64,000 bases of DNA. Origin: Rhizopus arrhizus. Lineage: Eukaryota > Mucoromycota > Mucoromycetes > Mucorales > Rhizopodaceae. Shown one piece after another: positions 26,027 through 56,136 of this stretch. Location: positions 186,001-250,000 of the forward strand of contig JAKZZE010000030.1 of NCBI GenBank assembly GCA_024220505.1, written 5' to 3'. The notes beneath the pieces are model-generated. The model had not been told where the DNA came from. It made no database searches and was given only the letters and a program-made list of their open reading frames with translations. Made by a program: the position numbers and the translations under genes. Positions within the stretch are counted from its first letter, which is position 1; each line of letters starts with the position of its first letter.

Positions 26027-26100
26027 TGGTCACTACGAGGGTCGAACTCGCGACCTTGGCGTTATTAGCACCACGCTCTAACCAACTGAGCTAAGCGACC
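26027..26100 (-). tRNA. tRNA-Ile(AAU)
   Basis: This is an intact 73-nt body plus discriminator A. The acceptor GGTCGCT pairs with AGTGACC (one G-T). The D arm is GCTC/GAGC. The anticodon arm TGGTG/CGCCA encloses loop CTAATAA (anticodon AAT). The T arm GCGAG/CTCGT encloses TTCGACC. It has no intron. Its first 15 nt, read on the plus strand as CTGAGCTAAGCGACC, recur at every junction of the SINE/LINE array to the right, so it is the likely insertion target. Gypsy B starts 8 bp upstream of nucleotide 1. Confidence 0.97.
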
Positions 26101-26108
26101 AGGTATGT
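26101..26108 (+). other. first 8 bp of the SINE, ending in the gypsy B target duplication
   Basis: AGGTATGT lies between the tRNA and the gypsy B LTR. ATGT (26105-26108) is repeated at 33460-33463 after the 3' LTR. Joining the two sides gives AGGTATGTGGAGATAG, the inferred 5' start of the SINE. Confidence 0.75.
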
Positions 26109-26813
26109 TGACGAAGTCGGATTTTGGTCGATGATCGCCTTTGATTCCTTTTTGATTTTTAAAGCTTATTTTGTATTCAAAAGATACTCCTTTTCATGGC
26201 GATTCGAATGGTATGCTTTTCGGTGTGGTTGGATAACTCTAACAGACGTTATTGAAGAAAATGTAAAAGAAAATAAGGGGAAAGGAAAATAATCAGCTTC
26301 ACCGCATCGGGAATTGAAAAGACACACGTCACAATTGGCCGACATTATTTTTCTTACCTATTATTTTCTATCCCTCATAGGATACATCAAGAAGACGATC
26401 TCTGGACGCATTATTCACCCAATGTGCCAGCACACTAAACAGAAAAGAACACCATTAAAATCAACATGAAGACGAATACTCAATTGATACATCATATACT
26501 TTATTTATCAAAAATCACCATAATCCTCTTTACAATTGTATATTTTCCCCAATTACCTTTATATTAATATGTATTCCAAAGTATCTATTGTTGTAAAGTA
26601 ATAAACGATAGGCTTTCTTCCCGCTAAAATTAATTTTGGGTGCCGAGTAAATTCTTTTTGCACGTTCAAGCAATTGAAGTCAAGAACTAGTTTATATTGT
26701 TAACTTTGTTGTTATTGTACATTAATAGTCTTTACAGTCTTCTATTAATTGGTTTCTGTTATCACTTCACCGTATAGCGAAACTAGACATAACATACATA
26801 TTTTCAACTGTCA
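26109..26813 (+). repeat. 5' LTR of gypsy B
   Basis: This 705-bp LTR starts TGACGAAGTCGG and ends TTTTCAACTGTCA. Confidence 0.95.
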
Positions 26814-26816
26814 TTT

Positions 26817-26834
26817 TGGTCCGGCCTACCAGAT
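26817..26834 (+). other. putative tRNA primer-binding site of gypsy B
   Basis: TGGTCCGGCCTACCAGAT lies 3 nt past the LTR. It starts with TGG, complementary to a tRNA 3' CCA. The donor tRNA cannot be named from this window. Confidence 0.6.
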
Positions 26835-27191
26835 TCGTGTCAAGATAATCACTCGATCAAGTCTCTAGGTGTAGGTGTAATATTAGATTTGTGTAATTTT
26901 TTTTTTTTTTTTTTCCTGTGTCTCTAGTATTGTATTTTTGTTAATTTTTTTTTTTCCTTTCTTTACTTGTGATTACCTTTCTTCACCGTTTGTTAATCCA
27001 AGGGCCCCTTGTTTCTCTTTTTTTTATTGTATTAGCCAGGAAAACTTTTCATTGCTTCTATTTTTATATTTTTTTTTTTGTACCTGTTGTAAAATTTTTT
27101 TTGACATCAGTGATCTTTCTGTTTAATTTTAATTTTAATTTTTTTTTTTTGTAACCTATTACACAAAATCGATAATCACCCTTTTGATAAT

Positions 27192-28175
27192 ATGGCTTAC
27201 AATTCTGTTAATGATGACGGTCTTTTGGAGACTACAAGAAGTCCTTTCGCTCCTAGTCAGCAAACGCACGGTGGCAAGAAGGTATTGCGCTTCCTTAATG
27301 ATCCAAGGAATTTCTCAGGCGAAATAGAGAACAATGGTGGTCGTTTGGAAGGTTTGTCTGCTGCTGCTCTGACCTGGTGGAAAAGGATGGACAGGATCCG
27401 TGTGTCTGCGGACCTGTCAGACGAAGAAATTCTGCTGGTGGCTGGTGATCACCTTACCGGCAAGGCGGAATTATGGTGGAACGTTTTGGGGTTCCAATAC
27501 GAAACATGGGCAGAGTTCTCTGTTGCTTTTAAGAAACAGTATGCTGCTGACCAAGAAGACGTTTGGTGGCAAGAACTTTACAGTTTGAAGCAGCGTGCTG
27601 GGGAAAGTATTGATGATCTTTCCTTGAGAATGAGGGAATTGTTGGTGTTGCTAAATAATAGAGTGGATAGCTTCCATGTTCGTGTCTTCTTGGGGGCAAT
27701 CAACCCTGTTATCGCCTGTGAGATCGAGAAAAGGGATCTCCCTAGAACGTTAGACATGGCCATCGTAGAGGCTAAAAAGATCGAAAGATCTTTAAACAAG
27801 TATGGTGCTGGATCCATGGATGGTGTTTCATTCAGGTCTCTGCCGATTACAGGTGGTAATCAAGGAGTGGGTGAGGACAATGTCTCTGTGTCCACCATGA
27901 CAGCCCTAATGAAGGAGCTTGAGCAAATGCGTATTAACATTGTTCAACTCCAGAATGAAAGGCAACGAGGTCCTTATCCTAGACCTTTTAACACTGGTGT
28001 TGTATCAGGATGTTTTTACTGCAAGGAGGAAGGGCACCGTAAGGTTGACTGCCCCAAGCTTCGAAATATGGGAGGTGTTCCTGTATCGGGAAGTAATGCG
28101 GTTCCTCTTGGTGGTGGGTCGAAACCAGAGAAGGGTGAAGTTTCCTTTTCGGGAAAAGACTCGGAGCGTCTGTAA
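27192..28175 (+). CDS. Gag protein of gypsy B
   Basis: This frame encodes 327 residues forming the retrotransposon particle shell. The middle has the Gag capsid pattern of Trp-rich helices (LTWWKRM, ELWWNVLG, WWQELYSLKQRAGESIDDL). A single CCHC zinc knuckle, CFYCKEEGHRKVDC, lies near residue 278-291 and would bind the element RNA. The start follows a T-rich leader of 378 bp. The stop at 28173-28175 is 23 nt before the pol ATG in another frame, so pol would need reinitiation, frameshifting or its own transcript. Confidence 0.92.
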   Translation: MAYNSVNDDGLLETTRSPFAPSQQTHGGKKVLRFLNDPRNFSGEIENNGGRLEGLSAAALTWWKRMDRIRVSADLSDEEILLVAGDHLTGKAELWWNVLGFQYETWAEFSVAFKKQYAADQEDVWWQELYSLKQRAGESIDDLSLRMRELLVLLNNRVDSFHVRVFLGAINPVIACEIEKRDLPRTLDMAIVEAKKIERSLNKYGAGSMDGVSFRSLPITGGNQGVGEDNVSVSTMTALMKELEQMRINIVQLQNERQRGPYPRPFNTGVVSGCFYCKEEGHRKVDCPKLRNMGGVPVSGSNAVPLGGGSKPEKGEVSFSGKDSERL

Positions 28176-28198
28176 AGGAGGCAACAGGCGCTCTAGAA

Positions 28199-31054
28199 AT
28201 GAATAAGTCCTCTAGTAACAATAATCAAGTTCGGATGGTGGATGTAGTTGATGTGGAGTCTCAGGAGATATTTGCTGCCGAAAAGAGAAGAAGCGAGGTC
28301 CCTGCTGCAAATCCATATCCAAGTTCAAGACCAAGAACGAATGGTGTACCAGTTGCTGTTCCCACCAGTTCAGCTCCTGCCTATGGTCATTCGATTCCAG
28401 TTGCAGGTCAGTCGATGGGAGAGGCTGCGGGTTTCCCAAACCGTCCATCTAGGGTTATCCCTATGCCGGTGGTGGATGCACCAAAGAAAAGAACCCGTGC
28501 CAAACCCAGGAAACTAGCAGTACAGACCAACAAGGTCAACGTTTGGGATGTACTGAGCAGAACCAATGCTGGTGCTTCGGTGGCTGATCTGTTGGCAGTG
28601 GATCGTACGGCTTGCAAGGACCTGGTAGATGGTGTACGTTACCTACGCCAAGGTAAACGAACGGCTGCTATGGGATCTACTGGTCCACATCGAAATGGTT
28701 CGTCAAGCGTGCCAATGGTAGTCGATACGGTGCAACCCACCGATGCTGATTGGAGTTCTGTTGGTACTGGTGGTGATGAAGATTCGGGGTCTGAAGGATC
28801 TTCAGTGGATTTCTCTGTTTCAGATATGGATAGCCAGGTATCGTCTGTTTATAGATATCCATACAGCCTCGACAATATGAAAGGTAGTTCTCCTTTTAAG
28901 GGCTTGGTGTCTATAAATGGACGTACCGTGGAATGTGTCTTCGATTCTGGTGCAAGTGTCAGTGTGATCAGTGGTGGTCTAGCTAGTAAGTTAGGGCTAG
29001 TGCCAAGCAACGACGAGTTGTGGCTGTCTGGTTTTGATAGTAGAACTGCTGGTAAACCATCGAAAGTGGTTGTTGATGTGCCTGTTGTCATCTCTGGTTG
29101 TTTAAGGCCTGAACACATGTGTATCTTGGAAAGGACCGACCAGTACCGTGAAAGAGAATTGTGTTTGCTCGGTGTGACCTGGTTCAAAGCTTATGGTATC
29201 CAACCTCGCATTGGTGTTGCCGAGATCCATATACCAACAAGTCGTGGTGTAGTAGTCCACAAGGGCTATACTGAAGCTAGACAAGTAGGTACTAGCAAGC
29301 AAGGCATGTTGGCGAAAAAGGAAAGGAAGGTCCACTTCATGGAAAGACAAGTCGAATCAGGACCTGAGAGACAGTCAATGGTGGAGTCTGGTCTTCCTTT
29401 TGAGGACAAAGATGTGAAAGTTGGAGAGGACGCAGAAGTGTATGCTGTCAGCATATCTGCTGTCAGTAATGGTGCTCCTGGATCTTCAAACAGTTTGGAT
29501 GTCGTTGATCAGACTAGGATTCAACAAGGGCGAGATCTGGTGGAATCGTACGAAGAAGGCATCTTTGACAAGCTGTCTGACAATGAAGATGATGATGAGC
29601 AACTGGTTCCCCAAGAAATGAAAGAAATGGTCGAATCAAGGTTTGCGGATTGTTTTGTCGAGAATTCGGGCCTGGGTAAGGTGAAGGGCTTCGAACACAA
29701 GATCGTCTTGAAGCCTGACGCTACCCCAGTGCGTTCTGTACCGTTTCGACTAACATGGGAAGAGAATGAATTCTTGGAGAAGGAACTGAACAGTATGCTG
29801 AAACTGGGAATAATCAGACCGTCTAAATCAGGCGCATACTCTTCTCCCTGTTTCTTCGTCAAGAAAAAGGATGGCAGTCGTAGAATGGTATTAGATTACC
29901 GAAAACTTAATCAAATGACTGTATCAAATGCGTATCCCTTACCTTTGATTTCAGAATTGTTGGATTCGTTGGGTGGTGCCAAGTTTTTCACTACGATGGA
30001 TATGGCTTTCGGTTATTGGCAAGTCCCTATGGCTGAAGATTCGATAGAGAAGACTGGTTTCGTAACAAAGAAAGGAATTTATGAATTCCTGGTCATGCCA
30101 TTTGGATTGACATCTGCACCCTCTACTTTCCAAGCCATGATGAACTCCATCCTAGGTGAGTATATTGGTAAGTTCTGCTTGGTGTTCATTGATGATGTGT
30201 TGATCTTTGGTGGTGATTCTTTGACGGAGCATAGTGTCTTGGTTGAAAAGGTGTTGATCAAGTGTAAAGAAGCTGGTTTGAAACTGAAGAAGAAGAAATG
30301 TTCGTGGGGTCGGTCTTCAGTATCGTATTTGGGTCATGAAGTTACATCGGATGGTTTAAAGCCTAGTGATCACAATGTTAATAAGATCGTTAAGTTTGAC
30401 ACGCCCAAGAATGTTGGAGAAGTAAGGTCTTACCTTGGCTTGTGTAGCTATTACCGTGCGTTCTGTCCAAATTTTGCAAGTGTGGCAGCTCCGTTACAGA
30501 AGTTGGTAAAGAAGAATGTGGCTTTTGTTTGGGGCGAAGAGCAAGAAACAAGTTTTAGGAGGTTTCAAGAAATGTTGACGTCGCCTCCTTTGCTTTCGTA
30601 CCCGGATAGAAGAAAGTACCAAGTGTTGTCCGTAGATGCATCGAAGTCTGGTTTAGGTGCAGTGCTTTCACAAGTTACAGATCTGTATTCATTGGCGAAT
30701 GAACAAGTTATATCGTATGCTTCAAGGTCATTACGTGGTGCTGAAACCAATTACGCGATCACACATTTAGAAGCTCTTGCAGTTGTATGGGGTGTTCAGC
30801 ATTATCGTCATTTCTTGTTAGGTCGCAAATTCGTCTTGATCACAGATCATTCTGCTTTGAGATATGTTTTTCAACCTGTCAAGTCTACCCCAAAATTGTC
30901 AAGATGGGCTGCCTGTTTGATGGAGTATGACTATATTTTGAGATATAGACCTGGTAATGCTAACCCAGCAGATGCGTTGTCAAGACTTCCAGTTGTAGAA
31001 AACGAACGAAATAGTGGGACTGACGAGCAAGATGAAACTCCTGAAGCGAATTGA
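28199..31054 (+). CDS. Protease-RT-RNase H polyprotein of gypsy B (no integrase)
   Basis: This 951-residue frame makes the element cDNA. A Pro/Ser-rich N-terminal 200 residues precede a retropepsin active site VFDSGASVSVIS near 246. RT: KKDGSRRMVLDYRKLNQ near 560, TTMDMAFGYWQVPM near 600 and FIDDVLIFGG near 662. RNase H: SVDASKSGLGAVL near 810 and ITDHSALRYVF near 880. It ends shortly after PADALSRL, the usual hinge before integrase, then acidic residues and a stop. Typical Ty3/gypsy pol frames continue into integrase here; this one does not. Confidence 0.94.
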   Translation: MNKSSSNNNQVRMVDVVDVESQEIFAAEKRRSEVPAANPYPSSRPRTNGVPVAVPTSSAPAYGHSIPVAGQSMGEAAGFPNRPSRVIPMPVVDAPKKRTRAKPRKLAVQTNKVNVWDVLSRTNAGASVADLLAVDRTACKDLVDGVRYLRQGKRTAAMGSTGPHRNGSSSVPMVVDTVQPTDADWSSVGTGGDEDSGSEGSSVDFSVSDMDSQVSSVYRYPYSLDNMKGSSPFKGLVSINGRTVECVFDSGASVSVISGGLASKLGLVPSNDELWLSGFDSRTAGKPSKVVVDVPVVISGCLRPEHMCILERTDQYRERELCLLGVTWFKAYGIQPRIGVAEIHIPTSRGVVVHKGYTEARQVGTSKQGMLAKKERKVHFMERQVESGPERQSMVESGLPFEDKDVKVGEDAEVYAVSISAVSNGAPGSSNSLDVVDQTRIQQGRDLVESYEEGIFDKLSDNEDDDEQLVPQEMKEMVESRFADCFVENSGLGKVKGFEHKIVLKPDATPVRSVPFRLTWEENEFLEKELNSMLKLGIIRPSKSGAYSSPCFFVKKKDGSRRMVLDYRKLNQMTVSNAYPLPLISELLDSLGGAKFFTTMDMAFGYWQVPMAEDSIEKTGFVTKKGIYEFLVMPFGLTSAPSTFQAMMNSILGEYIGKFCLVFIDDVLIFGGDSLTEHSVLVEKVLIKCKEAGLKLKKKKCSWGRSSVSYLGHEVTSDGLKPSDHNVNKIVKFDTPKNVGEVRSYLGLCSYYRAFCPNFASVAAPLQKLVKKNVAFVWGEEQETSFRRFQEMLTSPPLLSYPDRRKYQVLSVDASKSGLGAVLSQVTDLYSLANEQVISYASRSLRGAETNYAITHLEALAVVWGVQHYRHFLLGRKFVLITDHSALRYVFQPVKSTPKLSRWAACLMEYDYILRYRPGNANPADALSRLPVVENERNSGTDEQDETPEAN

Positions 31055-31382
31055 GGAAGTTTATTGGTGTTCATTAGATATATTTATAGATGTTAAAATT
31101 TTTTTTTGAAAAAGGGACAGAGGTTCTTTCGCACTCTTATCACTTTTTTTTGGGCTTGCCTAATTTTACCTTTATTTTTTACTTCATTCTTCCCCTTTTT
31201 ATTTTGTTACAACCCTTCACTCTTGTTTATCTTTAATTGATCAAGGTTTCTTTGAATAAAAGTTTTTGTCCAGATCAACTATAGTGGTAGTGATTAGTCC
31301 TTAGCTCATCCTTGGGATAATCATATAAATATACAAGACTTCCCTTTCTTTTTATAATTCTACGGTTGGTATTTACTTCAAG
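31055..31382 (+). promoter_or_regulatory. 328-bp non-coding spacer before the integrase ORF
   Basis: The spacer has stops in all frames, T-rich tracts, a TATAAAT at 31324-31330 about 53 bp before the integrase ATG, and pyrimidine-rich DNA after it. Gypsy C keeps the same layout with only small differences (near 31115-31128 and in T-tract length), so it is a fixed part of the element. It might hold an internal promoter; an intron is an alternative. Confidence 0.5.
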
Positions 31383-32711
31383 ATGCCTATGTCTTTTGCA
31401 TGGTTTGTGGCTATCTATCGTCACCTAGTTGATGGCACTTATCCTTCTGGTTGTACTGATGCTAATGAAAAAAGAAGAATTAAATATCAAGCCAAAAAGT
31501 ACTTTGTCGATGGTGATCGCTTACTTGAGATGGGTACGGGAAGAGAAGTGGTTCATGAAGGGAATGCAGTGGAAATAATTCGAATGGTACATGGTGAAGG
31601 TCATTTGGGTGTTGTCAACACTGTCAAGAAATTGTTGTTAGGGTATGTGTGCACAGAAGCAAGAGAGATTGTGGCTGAGGTGGTCAAAACTTGTGAAACA
31701 TGCCAATTTCGTGCAAGAGTAGATCGTTCGCGGCACAATCCAGGTTACATTGTCAAGACGCCCCGACACCCCTTCTTCATGGTTGGTTGTGATGCGGTGG
31801 GTCCTCTTACTCAAACTGCTAGGGGTAACAAGTACATCCTAGTAGCCACTGATTACTTGACAAGATGGCCCATGGCTTTGGCTGTTCCTGAGATAAATGC
31901 GGTCACTACTCAAAAATTTTTGTATGATGAAATTGTAGCTCAGTACGGTGTCCCAAATTACCTGTTGACTGATCGGGGAAGTAATTTTGTGGCAACGCTG
32001 GTCCATGAGTTTTTGGCGAAGATTGGTTGCAAGCACATTACTACCACTAGCTGGAGACCAAACTGTAATGGTGCTTGTGAAAGATTGAATCAGACGCTGT
32101 GTAGAACGATTGCTAAATTAGCGCGTGATGAAGACAAGATCCATCAATGGGATAATTACATTGCGTCCGCTCTTTTAGCAATTAGAACGATGAAGAATTC
32201 GGCTACTGGCTTTACTCCTGCTTTTCTCTTGTATGGATATGAATTTATGACGCCAGTGATATGGATGGCTCCCAGAGAAGATTTCGTGGAAGACGATTGG
32301 GAGGAAACCATCAAGGAAAGGGCGATTATGATTCAAGAGAAATTGAAGGAAGCCAGGGAGCATGCGCGCATGAAGTCTGATGAAAAGAAGAAAAAGGAAA
32401 AAGCTGTGTACGATAGAACAGTTGGTTTTCGTAAGCAGTTTGAAGTAGGAGAAGAAGTGTTGATGAAGGACATGTTGCCTGCAAGCAAGTTTGCTGACAA
32501 GTGGATTGGTCCTTTCCGTGTGTTGAAAGTCAACAAAAATGGTACGTACCATTTAGTGGGCTCAAATAGTCGGAAGCTCGACGGTGCCGTGAATGGCGAT
32601 AAGTTGACTGCATTTCATAATGCAAAGTTGATGGTTCCTGATGTCACGGTGACAAGAGCTCAACAGCAGTTCAAGTCTTGGGTGGCAAGGTTTAGCACTG
32701 TGCCCAGTTAG
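31383..32711 (+). CDS. Integrase of gypsy B, separate ORF
   Basis: This 442-residue frame has its own ATG (MPMSFAWFVAIYRH). The HHCC zinc domain lies near residues 69-110 (HGEGH...CETCQ). The DDE core has Asp in VGCDAVGPL, Asp in LLTDRGSNF and Glu in NGACERLNQ. A GPY/F-like C-terminal module (DKWIGPFRVLKVNKNGTYHL) follows near 385-405. There is no chromodomain, so targeting must use another surface. The protein inserts element DNA; the window suggests sites just upstream of Pol III genes. Confidence 0.94.
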   Translation: MPMSFAWFVAIYRHLVDGTYPSGCTDANEKRRIKYQAKKYFVDGDRLLEMGTGREVVHEGNAVEIIRMVHGEGHLGVVNTVKKLLLGYVCTEAREIVAEVVKTCETCQFRARVDRSRHNPGYIVKTPRHPFFMVGCDAVGPLTQTARGNKYILVATDYLTRWPMALAVPEINAVTTQKFLYDEIVAQYGVPNYLLTDRGSNFVATLVHEFLAKIGCKHITTTSWRPNCNGACERLNQTLCRTIAKLARDEDKIHQWDNYIASALLAIRTMKNSATGFTPAFLLYGYEFMTPVIWMAPREDFVEDDWEETIKERAIMIQEKLKEAREHARMKSDEKKKKEKAVYDRTVGFRKQFEVGEEVLMKDMLPASKFADKWIGPFRVLKVNKNGTYHLVGSNSRKLDGAVNGDKLTAFHNAKLMVPDVTVTRAQQQFKSWVARFSTVPS

Positions 32712-32738
32712 AAGAAAATCAAAGAAGATAAGCAAAGG

Positions 32739-32754
32739 CTAGGGGGGAGGTACA
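32739..32754 (+). other. polypurine tract of gypsy B
   Basis: AGGGGGGAGG followed by TACA sits directly before the 3' LTR. Confidence 0.85.
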
Positions 32755-33459
32755 TGACGAAGTCGGATTTTGGTCGATGATCGCCTTTGATTCCTTTTTG
32801 ATTTTTAAAGCTTATTTTGTATTCAAAAGATACTCCTTTTCATGGCGATTCGAATGGTATGCTTTTCGGTGTGGTTGGATAACTCTAACAGACGTTATTG
32901 AAGAAAATGTAAAAGAAAATAAGGGGAAAGGAAAATAATCAGCTTCACCGCATCGGGAATTGAAAAGACACACGTCACAATTGGCCGACATTATTTTTCT
33001 TACCTATTATTTTCTATCCCTCATAGGATACATCAAGAAGACGATCTCTGGACGCATTATTCACCCAATGTGCCAGCACACTAAACAGAAAAGAACACCA
33101 TTAAAATCAACATGAAGACGAATACTCAATTGATACATCATATACTTTATTTATCAAAAATCACCATAATCCTCTTTACAATTGTATATTTTCCCCAATT
33201 ACCTTTATATTAATATGTATTCCAAAGTATCTATTGTTGTAAAGTAATAAACGATAGGCTTTCTTCCCGCTAAAATTAATTTTGGGTGCCGAGTAAATTC
33301 TTTTTGCACGTTCAAGCAATTGAAGTCAAGAACTAGTTTATATTGTTAACTTTGTTGTTATTGTACATTAATAGTCTTTACAGTCTTCTATTAATTGGTT
33401 TCTGTTATCACTTCACCGTATAGCGAAACTAGACATAACATACATATTTTCAACTGTCA
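32755..33459 (+). repeat. 3' LTR of gypsy B
   Basis: This 705-bp LTR matches 26109-26813, with no difference noticed by eye. Confidence 0.95.
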
Positions 33460-33962
33460 ATGTGGAGATAGTGCAAATGGTTAGAGCGTCTGTCTATCAT
33501 TCGGGAGGTTGCAAGTTCAACCCCTCGTATCCGCATATCTACCCTTCCCGCACTCTAACTGCATGTTCTCTTTCTGCGGTGCTTCAAGCGCTGAATGATT
33601 TTGTCTTGTGTGTCGCGTTGAGCGGCAGCTTTGTATCTGTTCGCCTTCCTTCCCTCCATTGTTGTTTGGTGTTGTGCCGCTTGATAACACCCTGGTTTTA
33701 ACGCCGCAAAGTTGCTTCGGTGGTTTGAGGTGTTTGTTGATCGTTGTCTGTGCGTTGCCTGGATTCCCAGCCCCGGGATTAAAGAAGCATCGTTCTGTCT
33801 CTGCCTCAAGTCTTCGTCTATGGTTTCTGCTTCCAGATCATAATTCGCTCCTTCCCCCATTCCCCCTTAATAACTTGTATGCTTTCCAGGATGTTCCTGT
33901 GGATTGCAATAATGATTTCTTAATCGCCTGCATATAATCCAATAAAATATAAAATCTTTCAC
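33460..33962 (+). mobile_element. tRNA-headed SINE with a LINE-type 3' tail
   Basis: Together with 26101-26108 this forms an element of about 507 bp, split by gypsy B. Head (about 33461-33540): tRNA-like, with A-box-like TAGTGCAAATGG, B-box-like AGTTCAACCC and pairing TGTGGA/TCCGCA; the anticodon arm is degenerate. The body of about 370 bp has no conserved ORF. The tail, TGCAATAATGATTTCTTAATC then CGCCTGCA and AAAATCTTTCAC, matches the 3' ends of LINE copies 2-4. The 15-bp tRNA-Ile fragment follows at once. A Pol III-headed element with a LINE tail is a classic SINE layout. Confidence 0.75.
33913..33926 (+). other. 3' stem-loop of the SINE
   Basis: Stem GATT (33914-33917), loop TCTT, stem AATC (33922-33925), closed by a T-G pair. 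It aligns with stem-loops at 38969, 43846, 48679 and 53563 with compensatory stem changes. Confidence 0.7.
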
Positions 33963-33977
33963 CTGAGCTAAGCGACC
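33963..33977 (+). repeat. 15-bp tRNA-Ile target duplication (junction 1)
   Basis: CTGAGCTAAGCGACC lies between the SINE 3' end and the 5' end of LINE copy 1. It equals the reverse complement of tRNA-Ile nucleotides 1-15. Confidence 0.9.
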
Positions 33978-34164
33978 ACCTTTCTTTCGCTCTTCCGACC
34001 GTTACACAAGGTATTTATTTTTCTACAACTTTCTATCGTCAATATCTCGACAACAAGAAACGATCCATCTTTACTTTTTTCACCATCGTATTCGCCGTAT
34101 CTTATTCTATTAGTACGCCAACTTTCATCTCTCTACGATAATTATTCACCATTGACATTTCGAC

Positions 34165-43859: not shown

Positions 43860-43900
43860 CCTGCAAATATCTTCCTATTAAATAAAACAAAATCTTTAAC

Positions 43901-48000: not shown

Positions 48001-48468
48001 TTTCGCCAGTATCGTGAGCGTCAAGTCATCACTCTCGTCACCTCCACTACCCAGGTTCTCTTACGCGCATGTCGCCCTGCTCTGGTGGTTGATCCCGTCC
48101 TATACGTTCCTGCAACCCGTGCAGAACGCTCTCTCTTGGTTCGTTGGCGTCTTGGCTGGCTGCCAGGTAAGCCTGAAGACTGTCCTTGTGGCCGTGATCG
48201 TCGCTCTCGCCGTCACTTTCTCGAGTGTGATTTGATCCCGTCCTTCCTTTGGTCTGATCTGCCTCGCTGTCCTCCTGGGTCTTATCCCATTGACTTTGCT
48301 CTTTCCTCGTTGCCTCTTGGCCGTTCAGCTCGCTGTCCTCCTTGGTGGTCATCACTGCTCCTTATGCTCTGGCATATTCAACGTCTCTGCCGTCCTGATA
48401 GCTTCTATGCTATTGATTCTTCTCCTGGTGCCTCTTGGTATTCAAGTTCTTCTCGCAACTCTGACTGA
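45085..48468 (+). CDS. ORF2 protein of LINE copy 3 (APE endonuclease-RT)
   Basis: This 1127-residue frame has the same domain order and catalytic motifs as copy 2 (CGDFNARLGD, GSDHRLLTLS, FLDIKSAYDTVDRR, FADD, CPCGRDRRSRRHFLEC). It has the shortest linker of the copies, with only one SPSGTSPSDSSGPPGSS block. No stop or frameshift is present. Confidence 0.94.
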   Translation: MSEVQHLSISLWNANGLRTTTVHEVLSHCLSSTLLFITETWLLSPSLLPTDWMQYHVYGVPVPSANRGSMGVTALVSPSCPFPVSQLPSPNRYTLSLKVGPFRIHCLYVPPPLSNSDFINVLSSIPSLPNTFICGDFNARLGDLTGDALVSPRGAAMARWLADRSLTVLNGPLAHGIPTWVGFRDDREISSIIDMFLTNASLMSPRLDIASDLSLGSDHRLLTLSFSFAQSSASESMSDTNDTTLHPRRLWNLSRLGEPDPCQLYQDTFRSSSAPLLSQLKRLVQHPPSSRPPIDDLNASLKNIIYSSLDSSVGDRPPRPSHWKKYWTQQLQDAADFRNRCYRRWRRAFGIDKVYWWHQHQQANVSFRQAVANAKRLSWQAFCKSLETDFTKAVSKVKQLNRRHQSSSSFSHPDGPSKAVEVMASHLASVFDGSLLPSTRPPSPPSPSSLGLPLGLHGSSPSGTSPSDSSGPPGSSHSLFTPLTIHMYIGQLPTRKAPGADHIKAEMLKPISTDLSHLLSWFFSLCCQWSYVPSLWRHAQVYPIFKKGDPSLPSNYRPISLTSVFRKLLELSLAPWLASVSPRLDLAQGGFRPRRSALDQALCLHELMQSYYRRSHRFPVVAFLDIKSAYDTVDRRVIWDALSRSGAGSSPCLPLLVHLFDDVSVSVLVSNHSSAAFSPVTGVLQGSVLSPHLYSVYINTLPALLRQVAAPATHLVPSSGSADAGMVPVNSLLFADDVAVIGSAKSVKEMLKLCEEHSLSLGYRWNPLKCAVLNHPTSSSSSSGSTQLSLYGTSLPLVDKFVYLGMPFVKTGLSAASVLPLRSPGVLQLMGILNKIGVNRQGFSLLLCARIYATFVRPKFEYGLAISKFSAAQVKDIDRLQDRCLRMMVGGHATSSTLVIKHMTTLPSMHHRIDVLTTRFCLRARSLPGSCLLSLLSSTLPVSRIKIHLDKNPLFLALPSPPPSSDARLKTFFRQYRERQVITLVTSTTQVLLRACRPALVVDPVLYVPATRAERSLLVRWRLGWLPGKPEDCPCGRDRRSRRHFLECDLIPSFLWSDLPRCPPGSYPIDFALSSLPLGRSARCPPWWSSLLLMLWHIQRLCRPDSFYAIDSSPGASWYSSSSRNSD

Positions 48469-48678
48469 AACCCTTCTTTGTCTGTCTCCTGCTGATCCCC
48501 CACGGAAGTAAAGCCATCAAAGTTCCTTGCCGTTGGGTTGTGACAGTACGTCAGCTAAGTTGTGGAAGTAGGCAGTCAATCTCATCTTTTTACTTTATCA
48601 TTTTTTTGGAGTTTTTCTGTTTCTCAGGCTCCTTTTTTTGTACTTATTCTTTTATCATTGTACTTGAAGATGCAACAA

Positions 48679-48692
48679 TGACTTTTTAGTCG
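48679..48692 (+). other. 3' stem-loop of LINE copy 3
   Basis: Stem GACT, loop TTTT, stem AGTC with an outer T-G pair. It is identical to copy 2 although the sequence just upstream differs by a base (GCAACAATG). Confidence 0.7.
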
Positions 48693-48733
48693 CCTGCAAA
48701 TATCTTCCTATTAAATAAAACAAAATCTTTAAC

Positions 48734-48748
48734 CTGAGCTAAGCGACC
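48734..48748 (+). repeat. 15-bp tRNA-Ile target duplication (junction 4)
   Basis: CTGAGCTAAGCGACC lies between LINE copies 3 and 4. Confidence 0.9.
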
Positions 48749-48937
48749 ACCTTTCTTTCGCTCTTCCGACCGTTACACAAGGTATAGTACGCGTAATCAA
48801 CTTTGAACTCAAATATCTCTGCGAATACGATACATCCATCTACCGTTTTAACACCAAAATAATCGTCGTATTTTTCTCTACAAACTATATTTTTTTCAAC
48901 TCGATTGCTGTATTTTTCACCATTTTCGACATTTCCC

Positions 48938-49942
48938 ATGTCTCAACAATCTGGCACTCCCATTTCGCTCATCTCGCAAGATGGAGTTGCAAATGTCAAC
49001 ATTCCAAACGCTTCTGACATGCAACAAGCTTTGCAATATTTATTGCACAACTTCGAAACACTCCAGCAACGTGTTTCAACACACGATGACTTGTTTGCTG
49101 AACTGACTGCTTTACGCAGTGAAAATGCTACTCTGAAGGCGAAAATCGCCTCACTCGAGTCTCAACTTTCCGCTGGCGCTGACGTCAACCGTTCTTCCGC
49201 TTTTTCCTCTTTGGCTTCCGACCCGGTTACCATACGTGCACCCCAAGATGCACCCCAAACGAACAATGCAACCTATAGTTCTATTGCTGCCAAGGCTGCT
49301 GCTACTACTGCTACTACTACCCGTCGCCCACCTAGCAAGAAGCGAAAGCTTGCTGCTAGTCGCCCATTCCAACCAGTTGACCCTTCTGCTCCTCGTGGTT
49401 TCGAATACCTGTACTTGCATAGAAACCGCAAACTGTCCCGTGCTGAAATTAGACGCAACCTGCGTTTACTTGGTCTTGATCTTTCCCGTGTTTTGGACAT
49501 CTGCTTTCCTGGCCCAAAGGCCATTGGTCTCCTGATCCATGTTCTTTACAAAGAAGAGGTGATCTCTCTTCTTTCTGCTGCCAAGGTTCCGTTGGTTGAC
49601 GGTTTTGATCCTTTGGATCCTGTCCACTTGGCGGATCCTGAGCTCCAGCATCTTTCATCGGCTGACAAGGCTAATGAATGTGCTGAGCTTCAGTTCACTC
49701 GCTGCTCCCGTGCTCTCTCTCGTCTTGGTGCTGGCCGTGCTCATCTGGTGGGTCCCGTAGGTAAGTACTTTTGTTCCAAGGGTTGGCTTGATGAGGACTC
49801 TTTGAGTCAGATTCTGTCTTCCCTTCCCCCTTCCTCTTTTGCTTCTCGTGGTCGTGACCCAGGCGCTGCTTTCCGTGGTGACACGGTCATGTCAGATGCT
49901 TTGGTCTCTGATTCCGCTAGTGCTGGATCACACTCATTATGA
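48938..49942 (+). CDS. ORF1 protein of LINE copy 4
   Basis: This frame has 334 residues from the Met at 48938, with MSQQSGTPISLISQDG at the start. It has the coiled coil, the KKRKLAASRPF patch and the RRM-like domain as in copy 2; its closest relative is copy 5. It ends in the ATGA overlap. Confidence 0.88.
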   Translation: MSQQSGTPISLISQDGVANVNIPNASDMQQALQYLLHNFETLQQRVSTHDDLFAELTALRSENATLKAKIASLESQLSAGADVNRSSAFSSLASDPVTIRAPQDAPQTNNATYSSIAAKAAATTATTTRRPPSKKRKLAASRPFQPVDPSAPRGFEYLYLHRNRKLSRAEIRRNLRLLGLDLSRVLDICFPGPKAIGLLIHVLYKEEVISLLSAAKVPLVDGFDPLDPVHLADPELQHLSSADKANECAELQFTRCSRALSRLGAGRAHLVGPVGKYFCSKGWLDEDSLSQILSSLPPSSFASRGRDPGAAFRGDTVMSDALVSDSASAGSHSL

Positions 49943-52900
49943 GTGAGGTCCAACACCTTTCTATAAGCCTTTGGAACGCGAATGGTCTTCGGACCACGAC
50001 CGTTCATGAGGTCCTGTCTCATTGTTTATCTTCCACACTCCTTTTTATTACCGAGACTTGGCTTCTTTCCCCTTCGCTCCTTCCTACTGACTGGATGCAG
50101 TATCATGTGTATGGTGTTCCTGTACCTTCGGCCAACCGTGGTTCGATGGGTGTTACTGCTCTGGTCTCTCCTTCTTGTCCCTTTCCTGTCTCTCAACTTC
50201 CTTCAGCGAATCGGTATACCCTTTCGTTGAAGGTCGGACCGTTTCGCATTCATTGTTTGTATGTTCCCCCTCCTCTTTCCAACTCTGAACTTATTAATGT
50301 ACTTTCCTCCATTCCTTCTCTCCCCAATACTTTTATTTGTGGCGACTTTAATGCTCGTCTTGGTGACCTCACTGGTGATGCATTGGTCTCTCCTCGTGGT
50401 GCTGCTATGGCTCGCTGGCTTGCTGATCGCTCTTTGACCGTTCTGAACGGCCCACTGGCTCATGGTATTCCTACCTGGGTCGGGTTTCGTGATGATCGAG
50501 AGATGAGTAGCATCATTGACATGTTTTTAACAAACGCGTTATTGATGTCTCCTCGCCTTGATATCGCGTCTGACTTGTCTCTTGGTTCTGATCATCGTCT
50601 ACTAACGCTGTCATTTTCTTTTGCTCAGTCAAGTGCCTCTGAGTCTATGTCTGATACATCTGATACCACATTACATCCTCGTCGACTATGGAACTTGTCT
50701 CGCCTTGGTGAACCTGATCCATGTCAATTGTATCAAGACACCTTTCGTTCGTCCTCTGCTCCTTTGCTGTCTCAACTGAAGAGGTTGGTTCAACACCCTC
50801 CTTCTTCACGTCCGCCTATTGACGACCTCAACGCGTCGCTCAACGATATCATCTACCGCTCCCTTGACTCTTCTGTCGGTGATCGTCCACCTCGTCCTTC
50901 ACATTGGAAAAAGTACTGGACACAACAACTTCAAGATGCTGCTGACTTCCGCAACAGGTGCTACCGTAGATGGCGTCGTGCCTTTGGCATCGACAAAGTC
51001 TATTGGTGGCATCAACATCAACAAGCGAATACCTCTTTCCGTCAAGCTGTGGCCAATGCCAAACGTCTCTCCTGGCAAGCATTTTGCAAGTCTCTCGAAT
51101 CTGACTTCACTAAAGCCGTTTCCAAAGTCAAGCAACTCAATCGACGACATCAGTCATCATCGTCGTTTTCCCATCCTGATGGTCCGTCTAAGGCAGTGGA
51201 GGTAATGGCTAGTCACTTGGCTTCGGTCTTTGATGGCAGTCTTCTACCTTCCACTCGCCCACCACCTCCATCATCTCCATCCTCTCTTGGTTTGCCTCTT
51301 GGTCTCCATGGTTCGTCTCCCTCTGGTTCGTCTCCTTCTGGTACGTCTCCCTCTGGTATGTCTCCTTTTGGTTCCTCTGGTCCTCCTGGTTCAAGTCACT
51401 CTTTATTCACTCCTTTAACAATCCACATGTATATCGGTCAGCTCCCTACTCGTAAAGCTCCTGGTGCTGATCACATCAAGGCCGAGATGCTCAAGCCGAT
51501 CAGTACTGACCTCTCCCACTTGCTGTCTTGGTTCTTCTCCTTGTGCTGTCAATGGTCTTACGTTCCTTCTCTCTGGCGGCATGCTCAAGTCTATCCAATC
51601 TTCAAGAAAGGTGATCCTTCGCTGCCGTCCAATTATCGACCGATCTCACTGACCTCGGTGTTCAGAAAGCTCCTTGAGCTTAGTCTCGCTCCATGGTTGT
51701 CTTCTGTCTCTCCTCCCCTTGACCTCGCTCAAGGTGGTTTCCGTCCTCGTCGCTCAGCTCTTGATCAAGCCCTATGCCTTCATGAGCTGATGCAGTCTTA
51801 CTATTGTCGATCTCATCGTTTTCCTGTGGTTGCATTCCTGGATATCAAGTCGGCCTACGATACCGTCGACCGGCGTGTTATCTGGGATGCTCTCTCTCGT
51901 TCTGGTGCTGGTTCGTCTCCTTGTCTGCCTCTCTTGGTCCATCTCTTTGATGATGTCTCGGTGTCTGTCCTGGTGTCAAACCATTCTTCTGCTGCTTTCT
52001 CTCCTGTCACCGGTGTCTTGCAAGGTTCTGTTCTCAGTCCTCACTTGTACTCGGTGTACATCAATACTCTTCCTGCTTTACTTCGTCAAGTCGCTGCTCC
52101 TGCCACCCATTTGGTTCCCTCCTCTGGTCGCTCCGATGCTGGTATGGTCCCAGTCAACTCTCTCCTCTTTGCTGACGATGTCGCAGTCATTGGCTCGGCA
52201 AAGTCAGTCAAAGAGATGCTCAAGCTCTGTGAGGATCACTCGCTGTCTCTTGGATATCGTTGGAATCCTCTGAAGTGTGCGGTGCTCAACCACCCCACTT
52301 CCTCTTCATCGTCATCTGGTTCAACCCAACTTACACTCTATGGTACTTCTCTGCCTTTGGTCGACAAGTTTGTGTACCTTGGTATGCCTTTCGTCAAGGC
52401 TGGTCTCTCTGCTGCTTCGGTGCTTTCTCTTCGTTCTCCTGGTGTGCTTCAACTAATGGGTATTCTCAACAAGATTGGCGTGAATCGTCAAGGCTTTTCT
52501 CTGCTCCTGTGTGCTCGCATCTATGCCACATTTGTCCGTCCAAAGTTCGAATATGGTCTCGCCATTTCCAAATTTTCTGCTGCTCAAGTGAAAGAAATTG
52601 AACGTCTTCAAGATCGCTGCCTTCGTATGATGGTAGGTGGCCATGCCACTTCTTCCACCACCATTATCAAGCATCTCACTACTTTGCCATCTATGCGCCA
52701 TCGTGTAGATGTGCTTACAACTCGCTACTGTCTTCGTGCTCGCTCTCTCCCTGCTTCTTGCTTGCTGTCTCTGTTGTCAACAACGTTACCTGTCTCTCGC
52801 ATACAAATCCATCTTCAAAAGAATCCGCTCTTCTTGGCTCTGCCTTTTCCTCCTCCGTCCTCCGATGCTCGGCTCAAGACCTTCTTTCGCCAGTATCGTG

Positions 52901-53352
52901 AGCGTCAAGTCACTTCACTCGTCACCTCCACTACCCAGGTTCTCTTACGCGCATGTCGCCCTGCTCTGGTGGTTGATCCCATCTTATGCGTTCCTGCAAC
53001 CCGTGCAGAACGCTCTCTCTTGGTTCGTTGGCGTCTTGGCTGGCTGCCAGGTAAGCCTGAAGATTGTCCTTGTGGCCGTGATCGTCGTTCTCGTCGCCAC
53101 TTCTTAGAATGCGATCTTATACCTTCGTTCCTTTGGTCTGATCTGCCTCGCTGTCCTCCTGGGTGCTATCCCATTGACTTTGCTCTTTCCTCGTTGCCTC
53201 TTGGTCGCTCAGCTCGCTGTCCTCCTTGGTGGTCATCACTGCTCCTTATGCTCTGGCATATACAACGTCTCTGCCGTCCTAATAGCTTCTATGCTATTGA
53301 CTCTTCTCCTGGTGCCTCTTGGTATTCAAGTTCTTCTCGCAACTCTGACTGA
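49939..53352 (+). CDS. ORF2 protein of LINE copy 4 (APE endonuclease-RT)
   Basis: This 1137-residue frame has the longest linker in the array (SPSGSSPSGTSPSGMSP), showing repeat-number change. All endonuclease and RT motifs are kept. The stretch after the RT (TTIIKHLTTLPSMRHRVDV, then RIQIHLQKN) differs from the other copies at many codons, then identity returns. Confidence 0.94.
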   Translation: MSEVQHLSISLWNANGLRTTTVHEVLSHCLSSTLLFITETWLLSPSLLPTDWMQYHVYGVPVPSANRGSMGVTALVSPSCPFPVSQLPSANRYTLSLKVGPFRIHCLYVPPPLSNSELINVLSSIPSLPNTFICGDFNARLGDLTGDALVSPRGAAMARWLADRSLTVLNGPLAHGIPTWVGFRDDREMSSIIDMFLTNALLMSPRLDIASDLSLGSDHRLLTLSFSFAQSSASESMSDTSDTTLHPRRLWNLSRLGEPDPCQLYQDTFRSSSAPLLSQLKRLVQHPPSSRPPIDDLNASLNDIIYRSLDSSVGDRPPRPSHWKKYWTQQLQDAADFRNRCYRRWRRAFGIDKVYWWHQHQQANTSFRQAVANAKRLSWQAFCKSLESDFTKAVSKVKQLNRRHQSSSSFSHPDGPSKAVEVMASHLASVFDGSLLPSTRPPPPSSPSSLGLPLGLHGSSPSGSSPSGTSPSGMSPFGSSGPPGSSHSLFTPLTIHMYIGQLPTRKAPGADHIKAEMLKPISTDLSHLLSWFFSLCCQWSYVPSLWRHAQVYPIFKKGDPSLPSNYRPISLTSVFRKLLELSLAPWLSSVSPPLDLAQGGFRPRRSALDQALCLHELMQSYYCRSHRFPVVAFLDIKSAYDTVDRRVIWDALSRSGAGSSPCLPLLVHLFDDVSVSVLVSNHSSAAFSPVTGVLQGSVLSPHLYSVYINTLPALLRQVAAPATHLVPSSGRSDAGMVPVNSLLFADDVAVIGSAKSVKEMLKLCEDHSLSLGYRWNPLKCAVLNHPTSSSSSSGSTQLTLYGTSLPLVDKFVYLGMPFVKAGLSAASVLSLRSPGVLQLMGILNKIGVNRQGFSLLLCARIYATFVRPKFEYGLAISKFSAAQVKEIERLQDRCLRMMVGGHATSSTTIIKHLTTLPSMRHRVDVLTTRYCLRARSLPASCLLSLLSTTLPVSRIQIHLQKNPLFLALPFPPPSSDARLKTFFRQYRERQVTSLVTSTTQVLLRACRPALVVDPILCVPATRAERSLLVRWRLGWLPGKPEDCPCGRDRRSRRHFLECDLIPSFLWSDLPRCPPGCYPIDFALSSLPLGRSARCPPWWSSLLLMLWHIQRLCRPNSFYAIDSSPGASWYSSSSRNSD

Positions 53353-53562
53353 AACCCTTCTTTGTCTGTCTCCTGCTGATCCCCCACGGAAGTAAAGCCA
53401 TCAAAGTTCCTTACCGTTGGGTTGTGACAGTAGGTCAGCTAAGTTGTGGAAGTAGGCAGTCCATCTCATCTTTTCACTTTATCTTTTTTTTGGAGTTTTT
53501 CTGTTTCTCAGGCTCCTTTTTTTGTACTTATTCTTTTTTCTTTGTACTTGAAGATGCAACAA

Positions 53563-53576
53563 TGACTTTTTAGTCG
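53563..53576 (+). other. 3' stem-loop of LINE copy 4
   Basis: Stem GACT (53564-53567), loop TTTT, stem AGTC (53572-53575), with an outer T-G pair. Confidence 0.7.
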
Positions 53577-53620
53577 CCTGCAATATATCTTCGTAATTAA
53601 ATAAAAACAAAATCTTTAAC

Positions 53621-53635
53621 CTGAGCTAAGCGACC
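53621..53635 (+). repeat. 15-bp tRNA-Ile target duplication (junction 5)
   Basis: CTGAGCTAAGCGACC lies between LINE copies 4 and 5; one extra G precedes the usual ACCTTTC start of copy 5. Confidence 0.9.
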
Positions 53636-53825
53636 GACCTTTCTTTCGCTCTTCCGACCGTTACACAAGGTATAGTACGCGTAATCAACTTTGAACTCAA
53701 ATATCTCTACGAATACGATACATCCATCTACCGTTTTAACACCAAAATAATCGTCGTATTTTTCTCTACAAACTATATTTTTTTCAACTCGATTGCTATA
53801 TTTTTCACCATTTTCGACATTTCCC

Positions 53826-54830
53826 ATGTCTCAACAATCTGGCACTCCCATTTCGCCCATCTCGCAAGATGGAGTGGCAAATGTCAACATTCCAAACCCT
53901 TCTGACATGCAACAAGCTTTGCAATATTTATTGCACAACTTCGAAACCCTCCAGCAACGTGTTTCAACACACGATGACTTGTTTGCTGAACTGACTGCTT
54001 TACGCAGTGAAAATGCTACTTTGAAGGCGAAAATCGCCTCACTCGAATCTCAACTCTCCGCTGGCGCTGACGTCAACCGTTCTTCCGCTTTTTCCTCTTT
54101 GGCTTCCGACCCGGTTACCATACGTGCACCCCAAGATGCACCCCAAACGAACAATGCAACCTATAGTTCTATTGCTGCCAAGGCTGCTGCTACTACTGCT
54201 ACTACTACCCGTCGCCCACCTAGCAAGAAGCGAAAGCTTGCTGCTAGTCGTCCATTCCAACCAGTTGACCCTTCTGCTCCTCGTGGTTTCGAATACCTGT
54301 ACTTGCATAGAAACCGCAAGCTGTCCCGTGCTGAAATTAGACGCAACCTGCGTTTACTTGGTCTTGATCTTTCCCGTGTTTTGGACATCTGCTTTCCTGG
54401 CCCAAAGGCCATTGGTCTCCTGATCCATGTTCTTTACAAAGAAGAGGTGATCTCTCTTCTTTCTGCTGCCAAGGTTCCGTTGGTTGACGGTTTTGATCCT
54501 CTGGATCCTATCAACTTGGCGGATCCTGAGCTCCAGCATCTTTCATCGGCTGACAAGGCTAATGAATGTGCTGAGCTCCAGTTCACTCGCTGCTCCCGTG
54601 CTCTCTCTCGTCTTGGTGCCGGCCGTGCTCACCTGGTGGGTCCCATAGGTAAGTACTTTTGTTCTAAGGGATGGATCGATGACGACTCTTTGAGTCAGAT
54701 TCTGTCTTCCCTTCCCCCTTCCTCTTTTGCTGCTCGTGGTCGTGACCCAGGCGCTGCTTTCCGTGGTGACACGGTCATGTCAGATGCTTTGGTCTCTGAT
54801 TCCGCTAGTGCTGGATCACACTCATTATGA
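53826..54830 (+). CDS. ORF1 protein of LINE copy 5
   Basis: This 334-residue frame is almost identical to ORF1 of copy 4 (ISPISQDG instead of ISLISQDG near residue 12, plus a few others). It is complete, with the ATGA overlap. Confidence 0.88.
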   Translation: MSQQSGTPISPISQDGVANVNIPNPSDMQQALQYLLHNFETLQQRVSTHDDLFAELTALRSENATLKAKIASLESQLSAGADVNRSSAFSSLASDPVTIRAPQDAPQTNNATYSSIAAKAAATTATTTRRPPSKKRKLAASRPFQPVDPSAPRGFEYLYLHRNRKLSRAEIRRNLRLLGLDLSRVLDICFPGPKAIGLLIHVLYKEEVISLLSAAKVPLVDGFDPLDPINLADPELQHLSSADKANECAELQFTRCSRALSRLGAGRAHLVGPIGKYFCSKGWIDDDSLSQILSSLPPSSFAARGRDPGAAFRGDTVMSDALVSDSASAGSHSL

Positions 54831-56136
54831 GTGAGGTCCAACACCTTTCTATAAGCCTTTGGAACGCGAATGGTCTTCGGACCACGACCGTTCATGAAGT
54901 CTTGTCTCATTGTCTCTCCTCTACTCTCCTTTTCATCACCGAGACTTGGCTTCTTTCCCCTTCTCTCCTTCCTACTGACTGGATGCAGTATCATGTGTAT
55001 GGTGTTCCTGTACCTTCGGCCAACCGTGGTTCGATGGGTGTTACTGCTCTGGTCTCTCCTTCTTGTCCCTTTCCTGTCTCTCAACTTCCTTCACCGAATC
55101 GGTATACCCTTTCGTTGAAGGTCGGACCGTTTCGCATTCATTGTTTGTATGTTCCCCCTCCTCTTTCCAACTCTGAATTTATGAATGTACTCTCTTCCAT
55201 CCCCTCCTTACCCAATACTTTTATTTGTGGCGACTTTAATGCTCGTCTTGGTGACCTCACTGGTGATGCATTGGTCTCTCCTCGTGGTGCTGCTATGGCT
55301 CGCTGGCTTGCTGATCGCTCTTTGACCGTTCTGAACGGCCCACTGGCTCATGGTATTCCTACCTGGGTCGGGTTTCGTGATGATCGAGAGATGAGTAGCA
55401 TCATTGACATGTTTTTAACAAACGCGTCATTGATGTCTCCTCGCCTTGACATCGCGTCTGACTTGTCTCTTGGTTCTGATCATCGTCTACTCACGCTGTC
55501 ATTTTCATTTGCTCAGTCAAGTGCCTCTGAGTCATTATCTGATATACCTGATGCTACTATTCATCCTCGTCGACTATGGAACTTGTCTCGCCTTGGTGAA
55601 CCTGATCCATGTCAGCTGTATCAAGATACATTTCGTTCGTCTTCTGCTCCTCTGCTTTCTCAACTGAAGAGGTTGGTTCAACACCCTCCTTCTTCACGTC
55701 CGCCAATTGACGACCTCAACGTGTCGCTCAACGATATAATCTACCGTTCTCTTGACTCTTCTGTCGGTGATCGTCCACCTCGTCCATCCCATTGGAAAAA
55801 GTACTGGACACAACAATTGCAAGATGCTGCTGACTTCCGTAACAGGTGCTACCGTAGATGGCGTCGTGCCTTTGGCATTGACAAAGTCTATTGGTGGCAT
55901 CAACATCAACAAGCAAATACCTCTTTCCGTCAAGCTGTGGCCAATGCCAAACGTCTCTCTTGGCAAGCATTCTGCAAGTCTCTAGAAACTGACTTTACCA
56001 AAGCGATGTCAAAAGTAAAGCAACTCAATCGACGACATCAGTCATCATCGTCATTTTCTCATCCTGATGGTCCATCTAAGGCAGTGGAGGTAATGGCTAG
56101 TCACTTGGCTTCGGTCTTTGATGGCAGTCTTCTACC
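54827..56136 (+). pseudogene. ORF2 of LINE copy 5, truncated by insertion
   Basis: The endonuclease domain is complete (LWNANGL through GSDHRLLTLS). The frame continues to about residue 436 (VFDGSLLP) and then reads 11 foreign codons to a stop at 56168-56170. The RT and C-terminal parts are absent from the window, so this copy cannot encode a working enzyme. Confidence 0.92.

Follow-up and report, generated by a model that had tools for sequence, protein, structure and literature searches.

In a 64,000-nt stretch of Rhizopus arrhizus DNA (hereafter the window), a tRNA-Ile(AAU) gene anchors a head-to-tail array of long and short interspersed nuclear elements (LINEs and SINEs), whose units are separated by a 15-mer identical, in reverse complement, to nt 1–15 of that tRNA. 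Such arrays are real, exceed chance and are wider than was first reported. The sequence evidence makes it very probable that site-specific LINEs of the apurinic/apyrimidinic endonuclease (APE) type, accompanied by SINEs that appear to borrow their 3′ tails, insert at the tRNA A box by target-primed reverse transcription. Coordinates without a contig label are positions in the window, while C-numbers designate genome contigs.

Element junctions at tRNA heads

As an initial annotation had claimed, the window contains six exact copies of the 15-mer (Table 1); the chance rate in shuffled sequence was 0.07, and none of 100 shuffles attained six. Throughout the 50.26-Mb genome we counted 95 sites (79 plus, 16 minus), where base composition predicts 0.02–0.09 and a reversed control pattern gave none. 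All 95 were read with their flanks: nine are tRNA-Ile heads, and the other 86 consist of the 3′ end of one element, the 15-mer and the next element. Upstream we found the end of one LINE type, LINE-B, at 62 sites, a SINE end at 19, the tRNA-Ile body at nine and the end of a second type, LINE-A, at five. Downstream stood a full LINE head (60), a SINE1 (10) or SINE2 (9) head, a LINE trimmed by ≤12 nt (6, including three heads trimmed by 11 nt, which were classed as trimmed and not as truncated), a more deeply truncated element (8, namely six LINEs and two SINEs, all verified against reference units) or native flank (2). Two of the six deep 5′-truncated LINEs have a common breakpoint and may represent one event.

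The genome yielded 11 tRNA-Ile gene matches, one of which ARAGORN called tRNA-Val, leaving 10. The initial annotation had asked whether other tRNA-Ile genes carry the elements and whether empty sites exist, and both are the case: eight of the 10 bear arrays (seven with the tRNA whole, one with it broken) and two are empty. The latter account for the two native flanks and lie in an inverted duplicate on C25 (C25:412838 and 420230). Together with the 5′-truncated copies that have the 15-mer on either side, and with the interleaving of different families within single arrays, the two empty sites back the proposal that elements insert at the 5′ boundary of the tRNA and duplicate about 15 bp, keeping the tRNA whole. 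A stricter tRNA-gene pattern retrieved six genes abutted by a LINE head (four Ile and two Phe, two of the six being identified by place only) and none in the control; a looser tRNA-like pattern was uninformative, with 93 matches versus 87 for its control.

We also searched for LINE and SINE ends independently of the target sequence. The 3′ tail of LINE-B and the SINEs gave 74 matches, of which C4:1664295 was left out as a chance match by eye. Among the 73 counted, 57 adjoin the exact Ile 15-mer, two an Ile-like head, 10 a tRNA-Ala head (CTGAGCTACATCCCC) and four lie elsewhere, so that 69 of 73 are at tRNA heads. The LINE 5′ head, with up to three mismatches permitted, gave 71 matches, following the exact Ile 15-mer (60), an altered Ile head (2), Ala (5) or Phe (3), i.e., tRNA heads in 70 of 71 cases; the sole off-target head is at C37:1346621 (L124), where ARAGORN finds no tRNA. 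For LINE-A there were 30 matches to the 3′ end, and the 27 that were read comprise three at Ile, 16 at GAGGGATTAGCTCAG plus one decayed, five at GCCCGTTTAGCACAG, one at Phe and one elsewhere.

The target is thus tRNA-Ile, as first suggested, but not tRNA-Ile alone, since LINEs also occupy Ala(AGC), Phe(GAA) and no fewer than two further tRNA-like heads, all at the A box. Among the occupied genes, ARAGORN identified four as tRNA-Ala(AGC) and one as tRNA-Phe(GAA). Exact sites of the GAGGGATTAGCTCAG target number 23 (control, none). Five of them have a T-loop-like GAAC that begins 40 nt ahead of the 15-mer, and all five open an array. The additional heads used by LINE-A include five tRNA-like genes starting GAGGGATTAGCTCAG. 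All targets have TAGCTCA or TAGCACA in common at nt 8–14, the start of the A box. The presence of LINE copies on several tRNA heads implies that what is targeted is the A-box region (TAGCTCA), in more than one tRNA gene.

On tRNA-Ile, the 37-nt 5′ heads of LINE-A and LINE-B are identical, although the bodies they are joined to are unlike (33978-34014 and 39041-39077; L134, L137, L139). On other tRNA heads, the LINE-A-tailed neighbours are followed by other heads (ACTTTTCTTTCGCTTTTGG, ATCTTTCTTTCGTG, GCCTTTCTTTCGTG). The LINE head seems to track the target more than the 3′ end does. By eye alone, a short stem between the head ends (ACCUU/AAGGU and variants) is suggested. Single-strand folds of the conserved head gave z = –1.57 for the Ile LINE-A head and –0.50 for a LINE-B head.

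Details of the junctions bear on the insertion chemistry. The tRNA-Ala gene reads ...CATTTGAGCTACATCCCC (TTTGAGC) and its 3′ junctions read AACCTGAGCTACATCCCC (CTGAGC). Because gene and junction differ at this point, the C must be supplied by the element; the duplication at Ala measures 14 nt. Of the 3′ junctions outside tRNA heads, all five that were read start with CTGA past the element end, which suggests that the 3′ end of the LINE RNA probably carries a CTGA matching the target. Seven of the 60 full LINE heads have one additional base (G in four, A in two, C in one). In two Ala arrays (C17:329994, L120; C41:1963451, L118), CGACC or CGACCGACC, the end of the Ile 15-mer, precedes the LINE head, likely a carry-over from donor RNA of an Ile array that moved to Ala.

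The positions, the duplications, the empty sites, the independence of the copies, the several tRNA targets and the polarity of over-long units (below) are observed; the nick order, the annealing step and recognition by the endonuclease are inferred, as follows. The endonuclease would recognize the site, perhaps aided by RNA polymerase III (Pol III) factors, and nick the tRNA sense strand after nt 14–15 (5′-...TAGCTCA(G)^). The nicked end would prime reverse transcription of the LINE RNA, whose CTGA would anneal to the target. The opposite strand would be cut at tRNA nt 1, where we place the second cut because LINE heads start exactly there on Ile, Ala and Phe genes, and nt 1–14/15 would be duplicated. 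The tRNA gene would usually be kept whole, with the inserted element facing away from it, and repeated insertion at the restored gene would push older elements outward, giving arrays of up to ~70 kb.

The closest competitor concerns what sets the target. As for Dictyostelium TRE5, it could be the Pol III machinery (TFIIIB/TFIIIC), and not an endonuclease reading the A box. The precedent, described in the available part of PMC5006619, is joined by the fact that several tRNA species are hit and by an apparent preference of array growth for intact tRNAs over solitary 15-mers. However, the cut lies inside the mature gene and is constant within one nucleotide, whereas the elements in the accessible sections of PMC5911963 land outside it, within windows of several bp; moreover, CTGA is retained even at non-tRNA insertions. 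We regard targeting by Pol III factors as unlikely, albeit worth serious consideration.

Independent insertion and array polarity

The genome contains 82 units between neighbouring sites, 39 of which were fully read; 19 of these are LINE-B of 4.7–4.9 kb. Their identity averaged 88.2% for adjacent units (11 pairs), 89.4% for non-adjacent units of one array (17) and 89.7% for units of different arrays (143). For 18 of the 19, the nearest relative is in a different array, some pairs being 99.9% identical. These figures bear directly on tandem amplification, in which recombination between 15-mers or between LINEs, by unequal crossing-over or rolling duplication, would have multiplied one LINE at a tRNA. 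Exact 15-mers and head-to-tail order permit such recombination, and the arrays at C3:1635623 and C14:1062440, which may be a duplicate or a second haplotype, start with the same truncated LINE-A and resemble each other in the order and spacing of their units; the start of at least one array was thus probably duplicated in one piece. Yet neighbours are less similar than copies across arrays, and LINE-A, LINE-B, SINE1, SINE2 and private truncations are interleaved. On the identity comparison within versus between arrays we reject tandem duplication as the main route, and we consider this explanation improbable. Separate insertions are supported by the truncated copies, the empty sites, the carry-over of donor bases and the unlike neighbours.

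Two further explanations fare worse still. That the 15-mer is merely the LINE 3′ (or 5′) end, insertion being otherwise random, would fit its presence at both ends of Ile-array copies, but we give this next to no credence: empty tRNA-Ile genes already contain it, and other heads replace it in 10 Ala, three Phe-type, 16 GAGGGATT and five GCCCGTTT junctions, which rules it out as part of the LINE. An assembly artefact (repeats collapsed or mis-joined) is hard to credit as well: the arrays on C3, C12, C14 and C18 do finish near contig ends, but eight arrays are anchored at tRNA-Ile and another five at a second tRNA head, and nested insertions and private truncations occur among them.

The initial annotation also proposed that arrays grow because each insertion regenerates the target. 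They do grow, but seem to do so mainly at the tRNA end and not at any regenerated 15-mer. The eight arrays anchored at a tRNA comprise 76 units (two of the sites that bound them are altered 15-mers). Of these units 15 exceed 5.15 kb, and their mean relative rank from the tRNA is 0.73 (within-array permutation, P = 8e-5). Without the Ty3-type element beside the window tRNA the rank is 0.774, a value reached in 0 of 100,000 permutations; when the C14 array, a likely duplicate, is also omitted, it is 0.779 (P = 3e-5). A transposon was seen in five of the 15 over-long units: three have a mariner-like element, one a Ty3 and one an IS1595-like element together with a Ty3. Two others were read and contain extra DNA of no assigned type, and eight were read in part at most. 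If over-long units are interrupted units, older units lie outward, and we infer that growth takes place mainly at the tRNA. Some arrays finish with long gaps (one of 38 kb), across which separate arrays may be joined; this qualifies the polarity.

A supposed third LINE type of 6.5 kb was rejected, as the five units compared are LINE-B with insertions of ~1.65 kb. By eye, from their proteins, these insertions are Tc1/mariner-like (in the units at C3:1641177, C12:780265, C12:19434, C3:1791483 and C3:1682989); two pairs are nearly identical (100% and 95%).

Several observations weigh against insertion at the A box as an exclusive or invariably harmless event. One tRNA-Ile, at C18:837327-837395 (L121), lacks its first 7–8 nt at a LINE junction, so preservation of the tRNA is not absolute (one of eight occupied genes is broken). 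Insertion into solitary 15-mers within arrays may also occur. The GAGGGATTAGCTCAG and GCCCGTTTAGCACAG heads are tRNA-like candidates, the latter from junctions alone. Ends outside tRNA heads amount to 4 of 73 for LINE-B/SINE, 1 of 71 for LINE 5′ heads and 1 of 27 for LINE-A; copies at random sites, which the initial annotation had named as the finding that would speak against it, go no further than these. Finally, a single genome was studied, and a scan of the viral_contigs and genome_contigs sets revealed no relative.

Elements of the window and their proteins

The order tRNA, SINE, five LINEs stands as first annotated, except that the SINE is split by a long terminal repeat (LTR) element and only four LINEs (one LINE-A, three LINE-B) are complete (Table 1). 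The tRNA is intact, as claimed, ARAGORN calling it tRNA-Ile(AAT); we set the limits of the mature gene by the 74-nt gene that ARAGORN calls at the two empty copies. A DNA transposon breaks the fifth LINE, and after it comes another Ty3 copy. In the parts of the adjoining stretch that were read, junctions of the same kind continue past the window to C24:280.8 kb, ~69 kb from the tRNA.

Table 1. Features of the tRNA-Ile array in the window (ORF, open reading frame; RT, reverse transcriptase)
Feature	Position	Strand	Basis or content
tRNA-Ile(AAU), intact; target and anchor of the array	26027..26100	-	ARAGORN (26026-26101); gene of 74 nt called at the empty sites
5′ copy of the duplicated target (tRNA nt 1-15 in reverse complement)	26086..26100	+	exact 15-mer match
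SINE1 copy, initial 8 bp, preceding the Ty3 insertion	26101..26108	+	
Ty3/gypsy-type LTR element within the SINE, 8 bp from the tRNA	26109..33459	+	type by eye from ORFs
SINE1 copy, remainder: tRNA-like head, LINE-B-like 3′ tail	33460..33962	+	
15-mer junction	33963..33977	+	exact match
LINE-A, full length, 5048 bp	33978..39025	+	
LINE-A ORF1; ORF2	34165-35199; 35196-38765	+	ORF2: APE endonuclease and RT
15-mer junction	39026..39040	+	exact match
LINE-B, full length	39041..43900	+	ORF1 39230-40240; ORF2 40237-43635 (APE endonuclease and RT)
15-mer junction	43901..43915	+	exact match
LINE-B, second head type (GGTAGACGACGCG)	43916..48733	+	ORF1 44105-45088; ORF2 45085-48468
15-mer junction	48734..48748	+	exact match
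LINE-B	48749..53620	+	ORF1 48938-49942; ORF2 49939-53352
15-mer junction, then one additional G (53636)	53621..53635	+	exact match
Fifth LINE (LINE-B), 5′ part	53636..56150	+	ORF1 53826-54830; ORF2 from 54827, broken near 56150

ORF2 of both LINE-A and LINE-B matched PF14529 (APE endonuclease) and PF00078 (RT) above the Pfam cut-offs, and contains ETWLL, GDFNARLG, SDHRLLTL and ADD, which we take to be catalytic motifs. For ORF1, no Pfam family scored above its cut-off. With these two ORF2 domains, target duplications, 5′ truncation and no LTRs, the elements belong to the APE-type non-LTR retrotransposons, and by their fixed place relative to tRNA genes they are, in the broad sense, tRNA-gene-targeting LINEs. 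Among the matches listed, the proteins closest to the window ORFs are from Rhizopus: the top three for ORF2 come from R. stolonifer, R. delemar and R. arrhizus (89–95% identity over 65–100% of the query), and the top one for ORF1 from R. arrhizus (90% identity). Two Mucor proteins in the ORF2 search (P0042, P0046) were 50–51% identical. In a tree of 22 proteins (three from the window and 19 of the 120 matches listed), LINE-B joins the Mucor proteins and others, with LINE-A outside (11 rows, 100/100). As LINE-A and LINE-B are not sisters there, tRNA targeting may be old in the group or may have arisen twice. Of 1184 candidate matches to ORF2, 41 were scored and 32 of these cover residues 1–1132 free of stops; the LINE population looks recently active.

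The two SINE types have 19 and 22 head matches genome-wide. Both share with LINE-B the 3′ tail ...CGCCTGCA...AAATCTTTAAC, SINE1 at 81% over 59–63 nt and SINE2 at 77–78% over ~73 nt, in copies mainly from the arrays that were read. Because of this tail and the identical junctions, the LINE enzymes probably mobilize the SINEs as well. By eye, the SINE heads seem to derive from tRNAs; at the loci scanned, ARAGORN called no tRNA in them. An Rfam search of 33400-39300 returned no family up to E = 1.

The 7.35-kb Ty3-type element in the SINE is a secondary insertion, flanked by ATGT at 26105-26108 and 33460-33463. Its 5′ LTR begins (26109) 8 bp from the tRNA-Ile 5′ end; the second Ty3-type copy (58238 onward) adjoins a tRNA-like sequence, and at C3:1754903 (L128) a similar LTR start lies ~8 bp upstream of a tRNA-Val. 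The interruption of the fifth LINE (56240-58240) includes an IS1595/ISXO2-like transposase gene (56841-57518, minus; PF12762), of a kind presumably tied to Merlin elements, and the transposon is flanked by inverted tRNA-like sequences, as if these were its ends. A 1344-aa open frame at 17791-21825 (minus) appears by eye to be another retroelement gag-pol. The Ty3-type placements near tRNAs fit the co-localization of Ty3 elements with tRNA genes described in the available section of the R. oryzae genome paper (PMC2699053), which puts LINEs at 3.78% of the assembly and, in its repeat section, does not link them to tRNA genes.

Known systems and significance

Insertion close to tRNA genes is familiar from other elements. 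In dictyostelids, as told in the accessible parts of PMC5006619 and PMC5911963, the non-LTR elements TRE5, TRE3 and NLTR-A/B lie at a set distance from tRNA genes (TRE5 ~50 bp upstream, TRE3 ~100 bp downstream, NLTR-A 2–6 bp upstream), and the TREs, which end in poly(A), code for APE, RT and a zinc finger. The Rhizopus LINEs resemble them in being non-LTR elements whose place relative to tRNA genes is fixed. On the evidence of those parts they differ in that the dictyostelid elements land outside the mature gene, whereas the Rhizopus LINEs cut inside the A box, duplicate nt 1–15, form arrays and have junctions without poly(A).

LINEs directed at tRNA genes are known from planaria and Trichomonas. 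The sections available of PMC4640811 list the NeSL-related NeSL-1_TV (tRNA-Pro), LIN15_SM (tRNA-Arg) and LIN25_SM (tRNA-Glu), and count NeSL among the restriction-like endonuclease clades. Like the Rhizopus LINEs, these are sequence-specific and aimed at a tRNA gene. Judged by those sections, the Rhizopus elements stand apart in their APE-type endonuclease, no restriction-like domain being among the Pfam matches, and in that close relatives hit several tRNA species.

The A box is also the site of Dada DNA transposons, of which, in the part of PMC8869645 at hand, several lineages hit tRNA nt 8–13 (TAGCTC, TGGCGC), one family may use several tRNA species, and a transposase produces 6–7-bp duplications. 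As far as that part goes, site and range of tRNA species are alike, but the Rhizopus elements encode RT and APE and make 14–15-bp duplications, and so are not Dada elements.

R1, R2, TRAS/SART and MoTeR are sequence-specific LINEs of repeated sequences or telomeres. R1/R2, Tx1-clade and telomere LINEs insert into repeats by target priming, as ours probably do, and differ in their targets; the available sections of PMC4640811 describe the R1 and Tx1 clades as sequence-specific. Among Mucoromycotina, Grem-LINE1 of Mucor is, like the Rhizopus LINEs, L1-like; its paper describes it as pericentric, and the word 'tRNA' is absent from the main text (PMC7377519). In the portion available of the R. stolonifer genome paper (PMC13111411), a LINE–tRNA link was not seen. 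A literature search, with subscription papers mostly outside its coverage and priority therefore unsettled, did not find a fungal APE-type A-box LINE with head duplication and arrays. While tRNA-targeting LINEs are already known, a fungal APE group that forms arrays by duplicating the head of the tRNA is apparently new.

A wider reading can be put forward tentatively, its chances being somewhat short of even. Two non-sister LINE lineages (A and B) within a Mucorales-wide group may have the A box of Pol III genes as their common target, carry tRNA-headed SINEs and treat tRNA species as niches among which they switch (Ile, Ala, Phe and two or more others); most of the tRNA-Ile genes found lie in LINE arrays. 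On this reading, the length of the duplication would match the span between the A box and the first nucleotide of the gene, so that the parasite would rebuild the gene it has entered.

The system is a clear example from nature of a parasite whose entry into an essential gene usually ends with that gene restored. The site serves as promoter and also forms part of the tRNA structure, and several related endonucleases are available whose specificities for it are neighbouring. A-box LINEs thereby let one test, on natural material, how LINE endonucleases of the apurinic type read DNA. For the fungus, the arrays account for the repeats upstream of most tRNA-Ile genes found in this genome, and they may serve as an ordered record of insertion.

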